Of a stretch of 64,000 nt of DNA, positions 9,193-27,084 are shown one piece after another. Both the position numbers and the translations under genes were made by a program. The notes below the pieces were generated by a model. That model did not search any database. It saw nothing but the letters and a program-made list of their open reading frames with translations, and was not told the DNA's origin. Origin of the DNA: Ruminococcus sp. (GTDB lineage Bacteria; Bacillota; Clostridia; Oscillospirales; Acutalibacteraceae); the NCBI GenBank assembly GCA_022768065.1, contig JALELS010000024.1, forward strand, positions 1 through 64,000. The letters run 5' to 3'. Numbering within the stretch: the first letter of the stretch is position 1; the number at the start of each line of letters is the position of its first letter.

Positions 9193-12141
9193 TCATCTTA
9201 ATATGCCTATGGTGATAATTTCAAACGGCTTATAATCAATTTCATCCGTCAAATACAGCTTATCCTCAAGCATATTCAGAACATAAACCTGCTGCGGAAA
9301 TTTCATTTTGCCGCGTCTGCCGTTTTGTTCGGACAAACGGACAACTACCATTTCACCGTTTTCGGAAATTTTCATCGCCTGCAAGAACATTCCGTCAAAT
9401 GTATTTTGGCATGAAACATCAGCCCTTGTCAGCGGAATATTAAATTCAAATGCGATGTCATTTATACGAGCGTCAACTGCCGAACCGGAATGCGGATAAA
9501 TGAGGTAAGCAAAGCTGTGCTTGCCTATGTCGCTTTCGGGATCGGGTCGCTCGGTAGCGCGAAGCAAGCTAAGCGATAAAGTGTTTTCCGAAATTCCTAT
9601 TCCGTATTTTGAATCGTTTATCACAGATATGCCGCCGTCCGTTTCCGAAATATCAAACCATTTGTGGTGGCAACATTCAAATCGGGCGCTTTGCCAGGAG
9701 GTGTTTTTGTGAGTTTCACGCGCAATAAATCCCGCACCGGTATCACAAAGAACCTCACGGCTTAAAACATTCGGAGAAAACAGTACCTTAGCGAGCTTAT
9801 GCTTTTCATGCCAATCAACATTGTTTTCGACTTCGATTTTTTTGGAACGTCTGAAAACTCTGATTATTCTTTCCCATTTACTGTTTTCGGTGGCGAGTGT
9901 TACTCTAAAAGAACAAACCTCTCCGCTTTTTTCCGTAAGCTTCAGCGGAGAAACTACCTTTAGCGGAATTTTTTTATCGGTATAATTCGGTAAAATATCC
10001 CATGCATCATACACGCCCGGATTATCCGCATATATTTCAAGGCGGTTAAAAGCTCCGTTTACCCATTCCCTGTCAAGTCTCTTATCATACAGACCGGTGA
10101 TAGAACCGTCAGAAGCAAAACTGATTTTATAAAACGGGGTTTCTGCCGAATTGCCGGACACGCTGCACCATTCGTCGGCAAATACTTCGTCCGGTTTATC
10201 GATAACGGCACAGTCAAGAGGAGCTATGTCGGGCACAGCCCAAAATCCCTTTTTTCCGAATCTTGTCTCGGTTCCGTCCTCGTCCTCAAAGAAAGTCAGC
10301 TCTTTACGCTTAAAGTTAAGCGAATTAAAATAAGCTTCGCCGTAACCGATAATTCCGCTCAGAGTTTTATCTATATATGCGTAATCTGCCAAGGCGTCAT
10401 TATAAACAGGGTTTATATGACTGCCGGGTAAAATATCATGAAATTGGTTTATAAGAAGCTTTTTATAGCATTCCTTTAGTTTTTCTCCTGGATAATCAAA
10501 ACCCGACATTGCACGCAATGTGGAAATAATTTCCGCCTCACGTATTTTATATTCAAGCTTTCTGTTTAATTTCTTTAAATTTGCCTTTGTGGTGAATGTA
10601 CCCCTATGCATTTCAAGGTACAATTCACCGTCCCACTTTGCGAGTGAAGTATTGCCTTTAAGATTTTTTTCTAAGAATTCGGCCCCACCCATATGCTTTG
10701 TTTTAGGCATAACGGAAATTTTGTCAAAACGCCTCATAACTTCAAGCATTTCTTCGGTAACACCGCTTCCGCCGTCTCCGTAGCCAAACATCGACATTGT
10801 TTGTCCGCCCGAATTTTTATCTTGATATGCTTCCCAATTTTCTTGTATTTGGCTCGGCATATTCCATGTAATAAAGTGCGTAGGCGGAACACAGGCATAT
10901 ACCTCGCTACCGTCTATCCCTTTCCATATAAAATTATTGTGGGGAAAACGGTTAGTATCGTTCCAAGTGGACATTTTATTTGAAACAAAATAATCCACTT
11001 CGCATTTTTTCAGTATTTGAGGCAGTATCCAACTGTTACCGAAAACATCGGGAAGCCAGCAATTGTTTATGGTCTTTCCGAAATTTTCCCTGAAAAACAG
11101 TTGCCCGTAAAAGCACTGCCTTATTAAGCTCTCAGCTGACGGAATATTGCAATCAGGCTCGATATACATAGCTCCGACAGGTTCAAATCTTCCCTCTTTA
11201 ACTCTTTTTTTGAGTTCTTCAAAGACTTCAGGATAGTACCGCTTTAAGGATTCATAAGTATATGCCTGAGTATGTGTATATTTAAATTCGGGATATCTGT
11301 CCATAAGGCGAAGCTGTATTAAAACAGTACGCAAATTCTTTTGAACAGCATGAATTCTGCGCCAATAATACGCTATATCAAGATGTGAATGCGCTACAGG
11401 TGCAACATCGCCGCTGCCCTTATAGTCTTTATTTGCGAAAATTACATCATTGATATATTTTTTTGCTTCTTTTATCCCGGTAGGTCTGCTGTCTGTGTCA
11501 AAATCAACCAGATTAAGCGCATTGTTAAGCTCGGCATTTACAAACTTTCGGTAATCCTCGTTGAACAACTCCGATTTTGCTATATCCAAAAGCGTTTCAA
11601 TATCGTATACAAGGCTTTGCACATCACGGTCAATCGTTACGAGGTACGCACCGTTAAAAATCTGCCTGCAACCGCGAACCGCTAACGACTCTGGATTTCT
11701 CTCGTCATCGGGTTTGGAACGGTTATATCCCTGCATCTCAAATTTAATTTTGTCGGGAGTACCAATATACGGGGTAAGAAGCACTCTGTCTCGATTTGGG
11801 TCAATGCCCCCCACAAACTTACCGTTAGCTTTGACAATAATTTCAGCAGCCGTTTTGAGATAAAGCCAAAGTTCCTTGTTTTTTAAACTGTCGGGCACTT
11901 CCATTTCCGCTTTTATAAATGCTGTGCCGTCCGGAGTAAAATACATATCTCCCTTTTTCAGCGGTCTGAATTCATCGGAATAAAACTCATAGTTGTTTTC
12001 CGTAACCTGACGGGCATCTTTAATAACTATATTATCTATCGGTAATTTATCATTTATAATATATCTTTTGAGCCAACCGAACCTGAGGTCATTCCATTCC
12101 TCGGGACGCATACTGCGCCTGACGACTTTAATATGTGCCAT
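9193..12141 (-). CDS. Alpha-mannosidase, glycoside hydrolase family 38
   Basis: A 982-residue cytosolic enzyme with no signal peptide. Zinc ligands are in HSHLD (residues 251-255) and the nucleophile is Asp365 in WLPDVFGNS; both fit family GH38, which releases alpha-mannose from glycans by a retaining mechanism. The C-terminal half is the beta-sandwich part typical of the family. GAGGAG precedes the ATG. It begins 11 bases after the phosphosugar mutase gene ends, so the two are almost surely cotranscribed, coupling mannose release to sugar-phosphate handling. Which linkages are cut cannot be read from the sequence. Confidence 0.95.
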   Translation of the reverse strand: MAHIKVVRRSMRPEEWNDLRFGWLKRYIINDKLPIDNIVIKDARQVTENNYEFYSDEFRPLKKGDMYFTPDGTAFIKAEMEVPDSLKNKELWLYLKTAAEIIVKANGKFVGGIDPNRDRVLLTPYIGTPDKIKFEMQGYNRSKPDDERNPESLAVRGCRQIFNGAYLVTIDRDVQSLVYDIETLLDIAKSELFNEDYRKFVNAELNNALNLVDFDTDSRPTGIKEAKKYINDVIFANKDYKGSGDVAPVAHSHLDIAYYWRRIHAVQKNLRTVLIQLRLMDRYPEFKYTHTQAYTYESLKRYYPEVFEELKKRVKEGRFEPVGAMYIEPDCNIPSAESLIRQCFYGQLFFRENFGKTINNCWLPDVFGNSWILPQILKKCEVDYFVSNKMSTWNDTNRFPHNNFIWKGIDGSEVYACVPPTHFITWNMPSQIQENWEAYQDKNSGGQTMSMFGYGDGGSGVTEEMLEVMRRFDKISVMPKTKHMGGAEFLEKNLKGNTSLAKWDGELYLEMHRGTFTTKANLKKLNRKLEYKIREAEIISTLRAMSGFDYPGEKLKECYKKLLINQFHDILPGSHINPVYNDALADYAYIDKTLSGIIGYGEAYFNSLNFKRKELTFFEDEDGTETRFGKKGFWAVPDIAPLDCAVIDKPDEVFADEWCSVSGNSAETPFYKISFASDGSITGLYDKRLDREWVNGAFNRLEIYADNPGVYDAWDILPNYTDKKIPLKVVSPLKLTEKSGEVCSFRVTLATENSKWERIIRVFRRSKKIEVENNVDWHEKHKLAKVLFSPNVLSREVLCDTGAGFIARETHKNTSWQSARFECCHHKWFDISETDGGISVINDSKYGIGISENTLSLSLLRATERPDPESDIGKHSFAYLIYPHSGSAVDARINDIAFEFNIPLTRADVSCQNTFDGMFLQAMKISENGEMVVVRLSEQNGRRGKMKFPQQVYVLNMLEDKLYLTDEIDYKPFEIITIGILR

Positions 12142-12152
12142 AATTACTCCTC

Positions 12153-14045
12153 TCAGTTATCCCAAAAATACGGCTTTTTGCGCACTGCCTTTATTTTTAC
12201 GGACTTACCTGTATTTTTCAGCACTTCTTCCGCTATCCAGTCAACGCATCTGTTCAAGATAAGGCATTTAGAACATTCTCCTCTGAAAATCAAAGTTAAA
12301 GTTCCGTCCTCAGACAGGGACTCAAATTCAACCTCACCGCCGTCGCCCTGAATTTTAGGCCTTATTATTTTTTTAATATATGTTTCGATATCCGTGCCCA
12401 TTATTCCGTTTATAATTGTTCTGATATTCTGAAGCGAACGCTCGCACGTTGAAGAGTCAATACCCCTTACGGAATAATAAATTTTCAATTTTGGTTCGGT
12501 GCCCGATGGTCTGACGGCAATCCAAGAACCGCCTTTAAGGAAAAACTTTAAAACATTTGATTTTGGCAAATCGCCGATGCCCGTACTATAGTCCTTAACA
12601 TCTGTGATGTTTGGAAAAACTGTTGCTTTATTTGCTCTGAAATATGACATAATATTCTTTATGCGTGCGGCACCGTCTTTCCCTTTTAGGACAAAAGAAT
12701 CAAGTGAATCAAGATAAAAACCGTATTCTGCATAAAGGACATTTAAAGCATCTGCCAATGTCATTTTATGCTTTTTGTAATATGCCGCCATCTCGCATAT
12801 TAGCATCGAAGCAACAACCGCATCTTTATCACGCGCATATGTGCCGACGAGATAGCCGTAGCTCTCTTCATAACCTATTAAAAACTCGTTCTCGCCTGTT
12901 TTTTCATACTTGGTAATCTGATCGCCGATATATTTAAAGCCTGTCAAAGTCTCAACAACATTCAAGCCGTTTTTCCGTGCAATTTCCGCACCCAAATCAT
13001 TGGTAACTATTGTTTTAACAAGCGTTGACTTCGGATTTAAACTTTGTTTCTTAAATTTAAGATAAAAATCCACGAGCAATGCTCCGGTTTGATTGCCGGT
13101 AAGCAAAATATATTTTCCGTTGTGCAAAACGCCGACGCCGACTCTGTCGCAGTCCGGATCGGTGCCTATAACCAAATCGGCATTCTCTCTTTCCGCCTTT
13201 TTAAGTGCCAGATTAAGTGCGTCTTTCTCTTCCGGATTCGGTGATCTGACTGTTGTAAAATTACCGTCGGCAACAGCCTGCTCTTTAACAACGGAGACGT
13301 CAAACGACATATCGGACAATACTTTTCTGACGGGAATATTGCCTGTTCCGTGCAAAGGGGTGTAAAACACCTTTAAGTCGGACGCTTCTTTGTAAACGTC
13401 CATTTTTTCGACTTCCGAAATATAGTTGTTCAGCACTTCATCGCCGATATACGTCAAGAAACCGTTTGACAATGCCATATTCAAATTCATATGCTTTACG
13501 GACTTTATATCTTTAACATTATTGATATATGATATGACTTTATCGGCGTATTGCGGAACAAGCTGACAGCCGTATTTATCATACACTTTATAACCGTTGT
13601 ATTCTTTCGGATTATGACTTGCGGTAATAACTATTCCGGCATTACATTTTAAATATCTTACGGAAAAAGAAAGTACGGGAGTGGGCATTATCTCCTCAAA
13701 AAGGAAGGTCTTAATACCGTTATAACACAATACTTCGGCGGCATATTCCGCAAAAGTCTTTGAATTATTGCGTGAATCATATGCAATAACAACGCTTTTA
13801 TCACCAGTAAACTCGGTTTTTAAATACTCACAGAGACCCTTTGTAGCCTTACTGACTGTATACTTATTCATTCTGTTGGCTCCGGCGCCCATAACGCCTC
13901 TTAAGCCTCCGGTACCGAATTCAAGGTCTTTATAAAACCTATCCTCAATTTCTTTTTCATCCGCTATTGATTCAAGTTCTTTTCTTGTATCTTCATCAAA
14001 CGTAAGCCAATACTCATATTTTTCACGAATGTTCAAGTTGTTCAT
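12153..14045 (-). CDS. Phosphosugar mutase fused to a NifU-like domain
   Basis: A 630-residue protein. Residues 1 to about 550 are an alpha-D-phosphohexomutase of the long PgcA/Pgm type: GTGGLRGVMGAG, the phosphoserine loop TASHNPKEYNG, the metal loop GTDPDCDRVG, the sugar loop GYEESYG and the phosphate loop RPSGTEPK. The last 80 residues (12156-12395) do not belong to that family: IRPKIQGDGGEVEF followed by RGECSKC (Cys591 and Cys594) is the pattern of the NifU C-terminal iron-sulfur scaffold. The frame runs through without a break. An ATG at 14093 lies within the -35 of the promoter, so 14045 is used, though GGAG is unusually close to it. The mannosidase gene follows at 11 bases. Confidence 0.88.
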   Translation of the reverse strand: MNNLNIREKYEYWLTFDEDTRKELESIADEKEIEDRFYKDLEFGTGGLRGVMGAGANRMNKYTVSKATKGLCEYLKTEFTGDKSVVIAYDSRNNSKTFAEYAAEVLCYNGIKTFLFEEIMPTPVLSFSVRYLKCNAGIVITASHNPKEYNGYKVYDKYGCQLVPQYADKVISYINNVKDIKSVKHMNLNMALSNGFLTYIGDEVLNNYISEVEKMDVYKEASDLKVFYTPLHGTGNIPVRKVLSDMSFDVSVVKEQAVADGNFTTVRSPNPEEKDALNLALKKAERENADLVIGTDPDCDRVGVGVLHNGKYILLTGNQTGALLVDFYLKFKKQSLNPKSTLVKTIVTNDLGAEIARKNGLNVVETLTGFKYIGDQITKYEKTGENEFLIGYEESYGYLVGTYARDKDAVVASMLICEMAAYYKKHKMTLADALNVLYAEYGFYLDSLDSFVLKGKDGAARIKNIMSYFRANKATVFPNITDVKDYSTGIGDLPKSNVLKFFLKGGSWIAVRPSGTEPKLKIYYSVRGIDSSTCERSLQNIRTIINGIMGTDIETYIKKIIRPKIQGDGGEVEFESLSEDGTLTLIFRGECSKCLILNRCVDWIAEEVLKNTGKSVKIKAVRKKPYFWDN

Positions 14046-14208: not shown

Positions 14209-15852
14209 ATGGAAAAATTCAAGCTCAATATAGAATACAAGGTTGGAAAATCTGTTTTCTCTACCAATCTTTTTGAAACGGAGCATTTCAAAATTTCTTA
14301 TAAAGCAACCAAAAGCCATATTACACTTAATATGACTTCATTTGTCCCGTTGGAAATTTTAAATCTTACCGCAAGCGTCCCTTATACATTCAAAGCCGAC
14401 AGCAGAGTTTTTGCTAACGGGTATCAGTCGTGGACCGAATGTCGGGAAATGTTTAAAGATGATAAACAGTCACACACATTCGGCCCCACAAGCTTTGCTT
14501 ACAGGCACTCGCTCCTCGGAGCCGCAGGTTCGTATACATTTGATGACAATGTCAGCCGTCGCGGCGTCTTTCAGGGCTTTTCTTATATATATGTAAGAAA
14601 CGGTGGAGAATACGACCTTTTTGCATCTCTTACAGAGAGAACCGGTTACACAATATTTACCGCCGATTTTAACAATAATATGATAACCGTGCAAAAGGAC
14701 CTTGAAGGAGTAACCGTTGACGGCGAATATGAAATTTTGAATTTTGCCGAGTACGTAGGAAACGAGAACTTTGTTTTCGATAAATGGTTTGACGAGCTTA
14801 ATATACCCAAACCTTCTGTAACCCCAAAAAACGGATACACCACATGGTATAACTATTACGGCAAAATCAACGAAAAAATCGTGTCCGACGATCTTGAGGC
14901 TTTATCAAAAGTCAAAGCAGATATCGACATATTCCAAATTGACGACGGATATCAATCGGCAACCGGCGACTGGCTTTCGATTGACAATAAAAAATTCCCG
15001 AGCGGAATGAAATCTGCTGCCGATAAAATACATTCAAAAGGAATGCTTGCGGGTCTTTGGTTGGCTCCTTTCGGTGTGCAATTCACATCTAAAACCGCCA
15101 CACAGCACCACGATTGGCTTATTCGCAGAAAGAACGGACACCCCGTGACATGCGGAGTAAACTGGGGGGGCTTTTATGCACTTGATATTGAAAATCCTGA
15201 AGTCAGAAACTATATTAAGAACTTTTTTGACGTTATACTGAATGATTGGGGTTTTGACTTAGTTAAGCTTGACTTTTTATATGCTGCCGCAATAATACCG
15301 AATCACGGCAAAAGCCGCGGTCAGCTTATGTGCGAGGCTATGGATTTTCTGCGCGAATGTGTCGGTGAAAAAATGATACTCGGTTGCGGCGTTCCCTTGA
15401 TGCCTGCGTTCGGCAAAGTGGATTATTGCCGTATCGGTGCGGATATGGGGCTTAGTTGGAAAGTTCCGTTCTTTGCAAACAGAGAATTTATTTCAACATA
15501 TCACACCCTCGGCAATTCAATATTCCGCCGACAGCTCGACGGCAGAGCATTTCTCAATGACCCTGACGTTTTCCTTTTGAGAGATGAAAACATCCATTGC
15601 ACGTTTGAACAGCGCAAGATAATAGCCACCGTCAACAAAGTTTTCGGCAGTGTTCTGTTCACGTCGGATAATGTCGGAAAATATAACGACGAGCAAATGT
15701 CTGTACTTCTCGACACATTTAGAAAGAGCAAAATTGATGTTAAAAGCGCCGAGTTTTTAAGCGAGAACAAACAAATAATGAAATTCGTGTACACACAGGA
15801 CGGTACCGAACACACATTTAAATTTAACATTGATAAAGGCACAATAGAATAG
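14209..15852 (+). CDS. Alpha-galactosidase, glycoside hydrolase family 36
   Basis: A 547-residue cytosolic enzyme of the melibiase-like GH36 group. It shows ANGYQSW (residues 69-75), the barrel strand FQIDDGYQ (242-249), LWLAPF, the nucleophile Asp355 in LVKLDFLY and the acid/base Asp412 in RIGADMG. The family hydrolyses alpha-1,6-galactosides such as melibiose and raffinose. The frame is open from 14029, but AAAGGAGGAAGCT directly precedes the ATG at 14209 and the promoter lies between, so that start is used. It is divergent from the mutase-mannosidase operon, and the shared intergenic region suggests joint control of glycan use. Confidence 0.92.
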   Translation: MEKFKLNIEYKVGKSVFSTNLFETEHFKISYKATKSHITLNMTSFVPLEILNLTASVPYTFKADSRVFANGYQSWTECREMFKDDKQSHTFGPTSFAYRHSLLGAAGSYTFDDNVSRRGVFQGFSYIYVRNGGEYDLFASLTERTGYTIFTADFNNNMITVQKDLEGVTVDGEYEILNFAEYVGNENFVFDKWFDELNIPKPSVTPKNGYTTWYNYYGKINEKIVSDDLEALSKVKADIDIFQIDDGYQSATGDWLSIDNKKFPSGMKSAADKIHSKGMLAGLWLAPFGVQFTSKTATQHHDWLIRRKNGHPVTCGVNWGGFYALDIENPEVRNYIKNFFDVILNDWGFDLVKLDFLYAAAIIPNHGKSRGQLMCEAMDFLRECVGEKMILGCGVPLMPAFGKVDYCRIGADMGLSWKVPFFANREFISTYHTLGNSIFRRQLDGRAFLNDPDVFLLRDENIHCTFEQRKIIATVNKVFGSVLFTSDNVGKYNDEQMSVLLDTFRKSKIDVKSAEFLSENKQIMKFVYTQDGTEHTFKFNIDKGTIE

Positions 15853-25734: not shown

Positions 25735-27084
25735 TTAAACTAACCTTTCTCTTACAACATCGGCTATTGCTTCGCCTAGCGACTGTATTTTAGCCTTATC
25801 TTTGCCCTCAAGCATTACGCGTACAAGAGGTTCCGTACCGGAAACTCTGACAAGCACGCGCCCGTCATTTCCAAGCTCGTTTTCAGCGCGCTTAATAGCA
25901 TTCTTTATCTCCATATCGCTTGTAAAACGGACTCTGCCGTATTTTGATACTTTAACATTTATAAGGACCTGTGGGAATATTTCCATTTCGCCTGCAAGTT
26001 CCTTGAGGGTTTTGCCGGTGTTTTTAATTACTTTTAAAACCTGAAGCGCTGAGACCTGACCGTCTCCGGTTGTAGCATAATCAAGGAAAATAACATGGCC
26101 AGACTGCTCACCGCCTATTGAATATCCGTTTTCAAGCATATTTTCAAGCACATATCTGTCGCCGACCTTGGTTTTTTCGCAGTACATACCGTTATCATCA
26201 CAAAATTTGAAAAATCCCATATTGCTCATCACGGTAACAACCGCAGTATCTTTTTTGAGAGTACCGACGGACTTCATATATTTGGCGCAGAGCGCAATAA
26301 CCTGATCACCGTCAACAATATTTCCCTCATTGTCAACAGCCAACATTCTGTCGGCGTCACCGTCGAATGCAAAACCGAGATCACAGTGATTATCAATTAC
26401 ACATTTTCTCAATCCGTCCATATGCGTCGAACCGCAATCGGCATTTATATTTACACCGTTGGGCTCGGCGTTTATGATTATGCAATCCGCTCCGAGGGAT
26501 TCAAACACACGTTTTGCGGAAACACTTGAAGAACCGTTTGCACAGTCTATGGCTATTTTAAGATTTTCACATCTTACGTCAATGGTAGACAGCACGTGCT
26601 TAATATAGTCATCTACCGCCGTATCGGAGCGTGTTATCCTTCCGACATCTCCGCCGATCATAACAGGCGGAACCTTTGCGTCATCAAGAATAATGCTCTC
26701 TATTTCGTTTTCAAGCTCATCCGGCAGTTTGTATCCGGTGGACTGGAATATTTTTATACCGTTATATTCGCACGGATTATGCGATGCGGAAATCATAACG
26801 CCTGCATCGTAACCGTACTCCTTAACCAAAAAAGCAACAGCCGGAGTCGGTACAACGCCTAAAAGAAGTACGTCCGTACCCACGGAGCAAAGCCCCGCCG
26901 CTATAGAAGCCTCAAGCATTTCCGAAGAAGCTCTCGTATCCATGCCTATCATAACTTTAGGTCTGTGAGAAAGATTTTCCGTAAGCACCATCGCCGCGGC
27001 TCTTCCTATCTGCATTGATAATTCACATGTAAGCTCGCTGTTGGCAACGCCTCTTGCGCCGTCTGTTCCGAATAATCTGCCCAT
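25735..27084 (-). CDS. glmM: Phosphoglucosamine mutase
   Basis: A 449-residue enzyme that converts glucosamine-6-phosphate to glucosamine-1-phosphate for UDP-GlcNAc and peptidoglycan. It has the start FGTDGARGVAN, the phosphoserine loop ISASHNPCEYNG, the metal loop FDGDADR and the phosphate loop RVSGTEPLVRVM. It is separate from the long mutase at 12153-14045, which has the glucose-type sequence motifs. Confidence 0.97.
   Translation of the reverse strand: MGRLFGTDGARGVANSELTCELSMQIGRAAAMVLTENLSHRPKVMIGMDTRASSEMLEASIAAGLCSVGTDVLLLGVVPTPAVAFLVKEYGYDAGVMISASHNPCEYNGIKIFQSTGYKLPDELENEIESIILDDAKVPPVMIGGDVGRITRSDTAVDDYIKHVLSTIDVRCENLKIAIDCANGSSSVSAKRVFESLGADCIIINAEPNGVNINADCGSTHMDGLRKCVIDNHCDLGFAFDGDADRMLAVDNEGNIVDGDQVIALCAKYMKSVGTLKKDTAVVTVMSNMGFFKFCDDNGMYCEKTKVGDRYVLENMLENGYSIGGEQSGHVIFLDYATTGDGQVSALQVLKVIKNTGKTLKELAGEMEIFPQVLINVKVSKYGRVRFTSDMEIKNAIKRAENELGNDGRVLVRVSGTEPLVRVMLEGKDKAKIQSLGEAIADVVRERLV

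Follow-up and report, generated by a model that had tools for sequence, protein, structure and literature searches.

A single open reading frame in the window analysed here, the whole 64,000-nucleotide stretch of a contig from a Ruminococcus sp., encodes a phosphohexomutase followed by a NifU-like domain, which raises the question of which protein this putative iron-sulfur or metal carrier serves. The initial annotation had looked for the answer in the mutase itself. A finding more general than the fusion emerges from the comparison with relatives, namely a three-cysteine NifU subfamily whose genes are tied to those of a glycoside hydrolase of family GH38. The features of the locus are as follows.

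12153–14036, minus strand: fused mutase–NifU gene, 627 residues from the probable TTG start (630 residues from the ATG at 14045)
12408–14036, minus strand: PgcA-type phosphohexomutase part (mutase A), domains I–IV, delimited by Pfam and by comparison with relatives
12156–12389, minus strand: NifU-like domain (Pfam match 12204–12389), a separate gene in relatives
12246–12275, minus strand: CX2CX5C motif, CSKCLILNRC, with all three cysteines invariant in the subfamily alignment
12156–12179, minus strand: conserved C-terminal tail KKPYFWDN, which remains at the free end despite the fusion
12142–12152, minus strand: 11-base gap between the NifU stop and the GH38 gene, with a GAGGAG ribosome-binding-like site
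9193–12141, minus strand: gene of a 982-residue GH38 protein (alpha-mannosidase family), the invariant partner of the NifU-like gene
11668–11670, minus strand: Cys158 of GH38, present in all 44 subfamily rows, in none of 13 paralogues
11377–11385, minus strand: His253 and Asp255 of GH38, two of the four aligned metal ligands (the others being Asp365 and His568)
14209–15852, plus strand: divergent GH36-like (Melibiase) gene with a putative start, a frequent neighbour of mutase A

Counted from the ATG, the frame (12153–14045) runs through 630 codons without interruption. Translation more probably begins at the TTG of codon 4 (14036), since a CGGAG sequence lies nine bases before it but directly abuts the ATG, and since the database copies are 627 residues long. 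Pfam domains PGM_PMM I, II, III, and IV, followed by NifU (PF01106), are all matched above their own cut-offs; the PF01106 match covers residues 553–614 (E 1.8e-10, 41.2 bits, cut-off 27). The initial annotation of a complete mutase and a NifU-type C-terminal domain in one frame is thus borne out, as is the cysteine pattern described in it, a CxxC with a third cysteine six residues further on, which reads as CX2CX5C (GECSKCLILNRC). The translation contains TASHNP, DPDCDR, GYEESYG, and RPSGTEP, which we take to be the active-site motifs of PgcA-type phosphohexomutases, and these motifs together with the four PGM_PMM domains place the N-terminal part among the PgcA-type alpha-phosphoglucomutases/phosphomannomutases, from which the protein differs in bearing the NifU domain at its C terminus. 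None of the equivalog cut-offs of the NCBIfam profiles is reached by the mutase part. The profile of NifU proper (TIGR02000, full-length with an IscU-like N-terminal part) scores 25.3 bits against a cut-off of 273, at profile positions 222–290 only. The fused gene is the sole PF01106 match in its genome (1.92 Mb, 96.8% complete), which also carries an unfused mutase paralogue, 48–50% identical to the PgcA-type part. A distant mutase paralogue (27% identity), presumably GlmM-like, is located in the window at 26023–27072 on the minus strand, and further paralogues are found on contigs C21 and C16.

A search with residues 540–630 of the fused protein yields 2157 proteins at E ≤ 1e-3 within the allowed length range. 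The best 120 of them (one being the window's own) are all 627-residue proteins with the same five domains, 93–99.8% identical to that of the window, and all keep the CX2CX5C motif and the KKP[FY]F tail; one of these listed copies is found on 188 contigs. Since all 120 are fused, an assembly error or frameshift, which had been named, together with absence of the fusion in close relatives, among the findings that would undo the proposal, is ruled out as the source of the fusion. Asked whether relatives share it, the initial annotation is answered differently at two levels: these close copies do, but in the genus only one of 39 genomes, that of the window, has the fused gene, and the 36 other carriers of the NifU-like gene have it as a separate one. 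The fusion is a species-level joining, and probably a recent one. In most other genomes of the genus the mutase and an approximately 80-residue NifU-like protein are encoded by separate, adjacent genes, and at most of the 34 unfused genus loci holding both parts, where the junctions were compared, the NifU-like gene (encoding about 77–85 residues) starts a few bases past the mutase stop or overlaps it by four bases. In six relatives (G026, G013, G033, G018, G019, and G032; loci L013–L018), the NifU gene lies in the frame of the mutase with one intervening stop, TGA in five of them and TAG in G033. With a single stop between the two parts, fusion requires little change, and readthrough of that stop would yield the same fused protein. 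The fusion probably came about when the stop codon separating the mutase and NifU genes was lost.

The GH38 gene lies directly downstream of the NifU-like gene, on the same strand, in all 49 NifU-like loci (48 of 48, plus that of genome G896), and these GH38 proteins form one distinct subfamily. The gaps between the two genes are mostly 8–34 nucleotides, the largest being 228, and the ribosome-site-like sequence of GH38 often begins at the NifU stop. At L030, L032, L033, L071, and L137, GH38 is truncated where the contig or the fetched stretch ends, the copy of G406 being whole in L125, and at L017 its frame breaks near the end. In the family sample (150 genomes), NifU and the subfamily GH38 are found in exactly the same ten genomes (Fisher 8.6e-16, a guide only, as genome relatedness is ignored), with GH38 identity falling from 58% to at most 42% in the remaining listed matches. 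In the genus (39 genomes) both are found in the same 37, with G014 and G027 (the latter 85% complete) having neither, and in the class sample (391 genomes) both occur at high score in the same two, G000 and G406. The order sample (394 genomes) gives 11 strong NifU matches, of which ten belong to genomes already counted and one to G896, whose GH38 was identified at its NifU locus. Across the samples of genus, family, and class, no subfamily GH38 lacking NifU turned up. Among proteins of 886–2819 residues, six candidates for natural NifU–GH38 or triple fusions were considered, and none scored. Clustering of neighbouring genes served only for spotting neighbours.

In 40 of the 49 loci, the gene immediately upstream of NifU is the mutase. 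It is absent from that position in eight (L012, L032, L049, L063, L067, L068, L070, and L071), of which L068 has it after GH38, and L050 is truncated on its upstream side by the end of the contig. In a quick tree with four outgroup paralogues, the 45 subfamily GH38s group as a single clade whose stem is very long (support 99). Within it, a clade of 38 rows (support 95) holds the mutase–NifU–GH38 order (L050 being cut), and all seven rows outside that clade, from G081, G182, G114, G007, and G118 as well as hRUG856 and G406 of other families, have no upstream mutase. In its simplest reading, the tree suggests that the NifU–GH38 pair came first, that the mutase was placed upstream later, and that the fusion was last. 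The placement of G406 and hRUG856 would also suggest that the pair travels between families, exact positions in the tree being unsure because of long branches, such as that of G406 meeting hRUG856.

The aligned NifU-like copies have in common GDGG, GECSKC, and the third invariant cysteine, and nearly all of them carry the KKP[FY]F(W)D tail. The CxxC is invariant in the 21 rows of alignment A1 and in the best 120 of 2467 free homologues; CX2CX5C is present in all 120 of the latter and the tail in 116. Four free relatives match PF01106 at 46.8–50.8 bits. The G030 copy shares 68 of its 77 residues with one NifU protein named Fimenecus and 69 with another, and the genus is probably Candidatus Fimenecus. 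The GDGG, the GxCxxC core, and the alpha-beta-beta-alpha-beta order predicted by AlphaFold2 are shared with the Nfu-type carrier domain (PF01106; human NFU1, 2m5o, and HIRIP5, 1veh), from which the subfamily differs in its third invariant cysteine, its tail, the lack of an N-terminal domain of its own, and the tie to GH38. In the model of the fused protein (mean pLDDT 41.3, unusable for contacts), the NifU blocks are mostly at 75–92 and the last one is at 55. As judged from sequence, the NifU-like proteins are a distinct subfamily defined by CX2CX5C and the KKP[FY]FWD tail, both of which are absent from the ordinary Nfu proteins compared. In the class sample, 16 weak NifU matches look like ordinary Nfu, the 13 with available sequence having CxxC without the third cysteine or the tail, and no match to the subfamily GH38 lies beside any of the 16 within flanks of about 1.5 kb or less.

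The GH38 partner consists of GH38 N, middle, and C domains. Its closest solved relatives are the Ams1-type alpha-mannosidases (7vqo, 6lz1, and 5jm0) and the entries 7ufr–7ufu, named alpha-mannosidase, with which it shares all three domains and the aligned metal and catalytic positions. GH38 enzymes are zinc-type hydrolases according to PMC7609781 and PMC2815779, and His253, Asp255, Asp365, and His568, present in 44 of 44 subfamily rows, align with the zinc ligands described there for Ams1 (PMC7609781) and SpGH38 (PMC2815779); both the domains and the ligands of GH38 are therefore in place. The partner differs from the Ams1-type enzymes as a separate subfamily with its own loop carrying Cys158 and a NifU-like partner in every locus seen, the best other GH38s of the family sample being 31–42% identical to it. 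Compared with 13 paralogues (L126 being more distant, and row L114 left out), Cys158 is the only cysteine that is both fully conserved and subfamily-specific. Cys343 is found in 39 of 44 subfamily rows and no paralogue, Cys417 in 43 and one, and Cys799 in 43 and none, while Cys331 and Cys824 also recur among the paralogues (10 and 7 of 13). The GH38 subfamily shows no evident Fe-S motif. The AlphaFold2 model of GH38 built from two rows (pLDDT 34.3) is unusable for contacts, and nothing useful was found in the literature on metal preferences of cytosolic alpha-mannosidases.

Nfu proteins act late in cluster assembly, handing [4Fe-4S] clusters to select clients via their CxxC, as described in PMC5014551. 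Only one other of the 150 family genomes, G089, carries PF01106, in a small gene that also adjoins a single large enzyme. That enzyme is a close homologue of 4-hydroxybutyryl-CoA dehydratase (1u8v, E 2e-239), and the Nfu gene lies between it and an acyl-CoA transferase-like gene (L121, 8169–11335). The Nfu of G089 differs from the subfamily described here in having an ordinary CxxCP without the third cysteine or the tail, and in that its presumed client resembles a known Fe-S enzyme. 4-Hydroxybutyryl-CoA dehydratase is a [4Fe-4S] enzyme. By analogy with this arrangement, the constant neighbour of the NifU-like protein, GH38, is likely to be its client, and the cargo may be a cluster, iron, or another metal.

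We tentatively favour, at a little under an even chance, a role of the NifU-like protein as a dedicated Nfu-type iron-sulfur or metal delivery partner of GH38, with the mutase as a neighbour in the operon, probably joined to it through the loss of a stop. A dedicated helper is made likely by the position of the NifU-like gene directly before GH38 in every related locus, and the main weakness of cluster delivery is the lack of an evident Fe-S motif in GH38. The zinc-type character of GH38 enzymes with all four ligands retained, the single cysteine (Cys158) that is at once invariant and subfamily-specific, and the failure to find a natural NifU–GH38 fusion among proteins of 886–2819 residues also speak against this role. 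The NifU part would take up a cluster or metal, SufB/SufD-type genes being located elsewhere in the genome, would dock on the GH38 protein, perhaps via the conserved tail, and would load or protect the GH38 cofactor, the translation of the two genes possibly being coupled. In the fused protein, the mutase would carry the donor and be drawn into the same complex as GH38; with the tail still at the free C terminus, maturation of GH38 would continue.

The chief rival is a lasting regulatory subunit. The NifU-like protein would then be a permanent small subunit or redox sensor, its three cysteines binding an Fe-S cluster, and would stay attached to GH38, switching the activity of that enzyme according to oxygen or iron status. 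The constant pairing, the small coupled gene, and the third cysteine and tail that set it apart from ordinary Nfu would all agree with such a role, but Nfu domains are known as carriers and not as sensors, and we consider it rather unlikely. A more specific arrangement, a glycoside hydrolase reliant on iron-sulfur chemistry, in which a [4Fe-4S] cluster or metal would be coordinated jointly by the CX2CX5C cysteines and Cys158 of GH38 as a bridging site, yielding an oxygen-sensitive mannosidase complex that here also includes a phosphohexomutase, is improbable. A NifU domain that controls or tethers the mutase, so that hexose-phosphate flux would follow Fe-S status or oxygen, was the reading of the initial annotation. 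The fusion is real and stable, the mutase is the partner actually fused and the usual upstream neighbour, and co-occurrence of NifU and mutase A in the family sample is above chance (Fisher 1.4e-8, to be taken as a guide, since relatedness is ignored). The relatives nevertheless lend this reading no support, as each gene occurs without the other and NifU is a separate gene in the other carriers of the genus. At 60% identity or more, mutase A is found in nine of 150 family genomes, seven of them with NifU, and the two are discordant in five; NifU is present in G118, G081, G114, and G007 with mutase A nowhere in the genome, and mutase A is present in G053, G175, and G014 with NifU absent. Discordance in both directions weakens the mutase as a constant partner, and its control by the NifU domain is quite unlikely.

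Two further explanations would loosen the tie to GH38. A general-purpose cellular Fe-S carrier merely housed in the operon would agree with the fused gene being the only PF01106 match in a genome with SufB/SufD-type genes, but PF01106 is missing altogether from 139 of 150 family genomes, which makes the function an accessory one, and presence tracks one GH38 subfamily exactly; such a carrier is very unlikely. A shared operon with no physical or maturation link between NifU and GH38, the NifU-like protein serving, for example, an unlinked sugar-pathway enzyme, is likewise very unlikely: the loci do sit among other carbohydrate genes, but the flanking genes vary while the pair is constant. To our knowledge, no glycoside hydrolase has been described that has an Nfu-type partner of its own. 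Neither a phosphoglucomutase–NifU fusion nor a NifU with an alpha-mannosidase or GH38 was found in the literature searched, with subscription journals mostly outside its coverage, and within these bounds the initial statement that the mutase–NifU architecture has no described precedent stands. Should the NifU partner load or gate GH38, the breakdown of sugars by a group of gut bacteria would hinge on their supply of Fe-S or metal. Being small, adjacent, and co-expressible, the pair lends itself to direct testing, and the natural mutase fusion offers an extra handle.

Some individual loci show additional features. A class V aminotransferase gene (PF00266), which we take to be cysteine-desulfurase-like, is found about 3 kb or less from the NifU–GH38 pair at L012 (9940–11229) and L049 (8425–9612), where the mutase is absent; this proximity could be due to chance. 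Genome G012 has on contig C5 (L032) a second, divergent NifU–GH38 pair with no upstream mutase and with GH38 cut by the contig end. In G406, which belongs to another family, the pair is followed, as seen by eye, by an AraC-type regulator and GH31- and GH2-like genes (L125, 8458–17640), hinting at a carbohydrate-use island.
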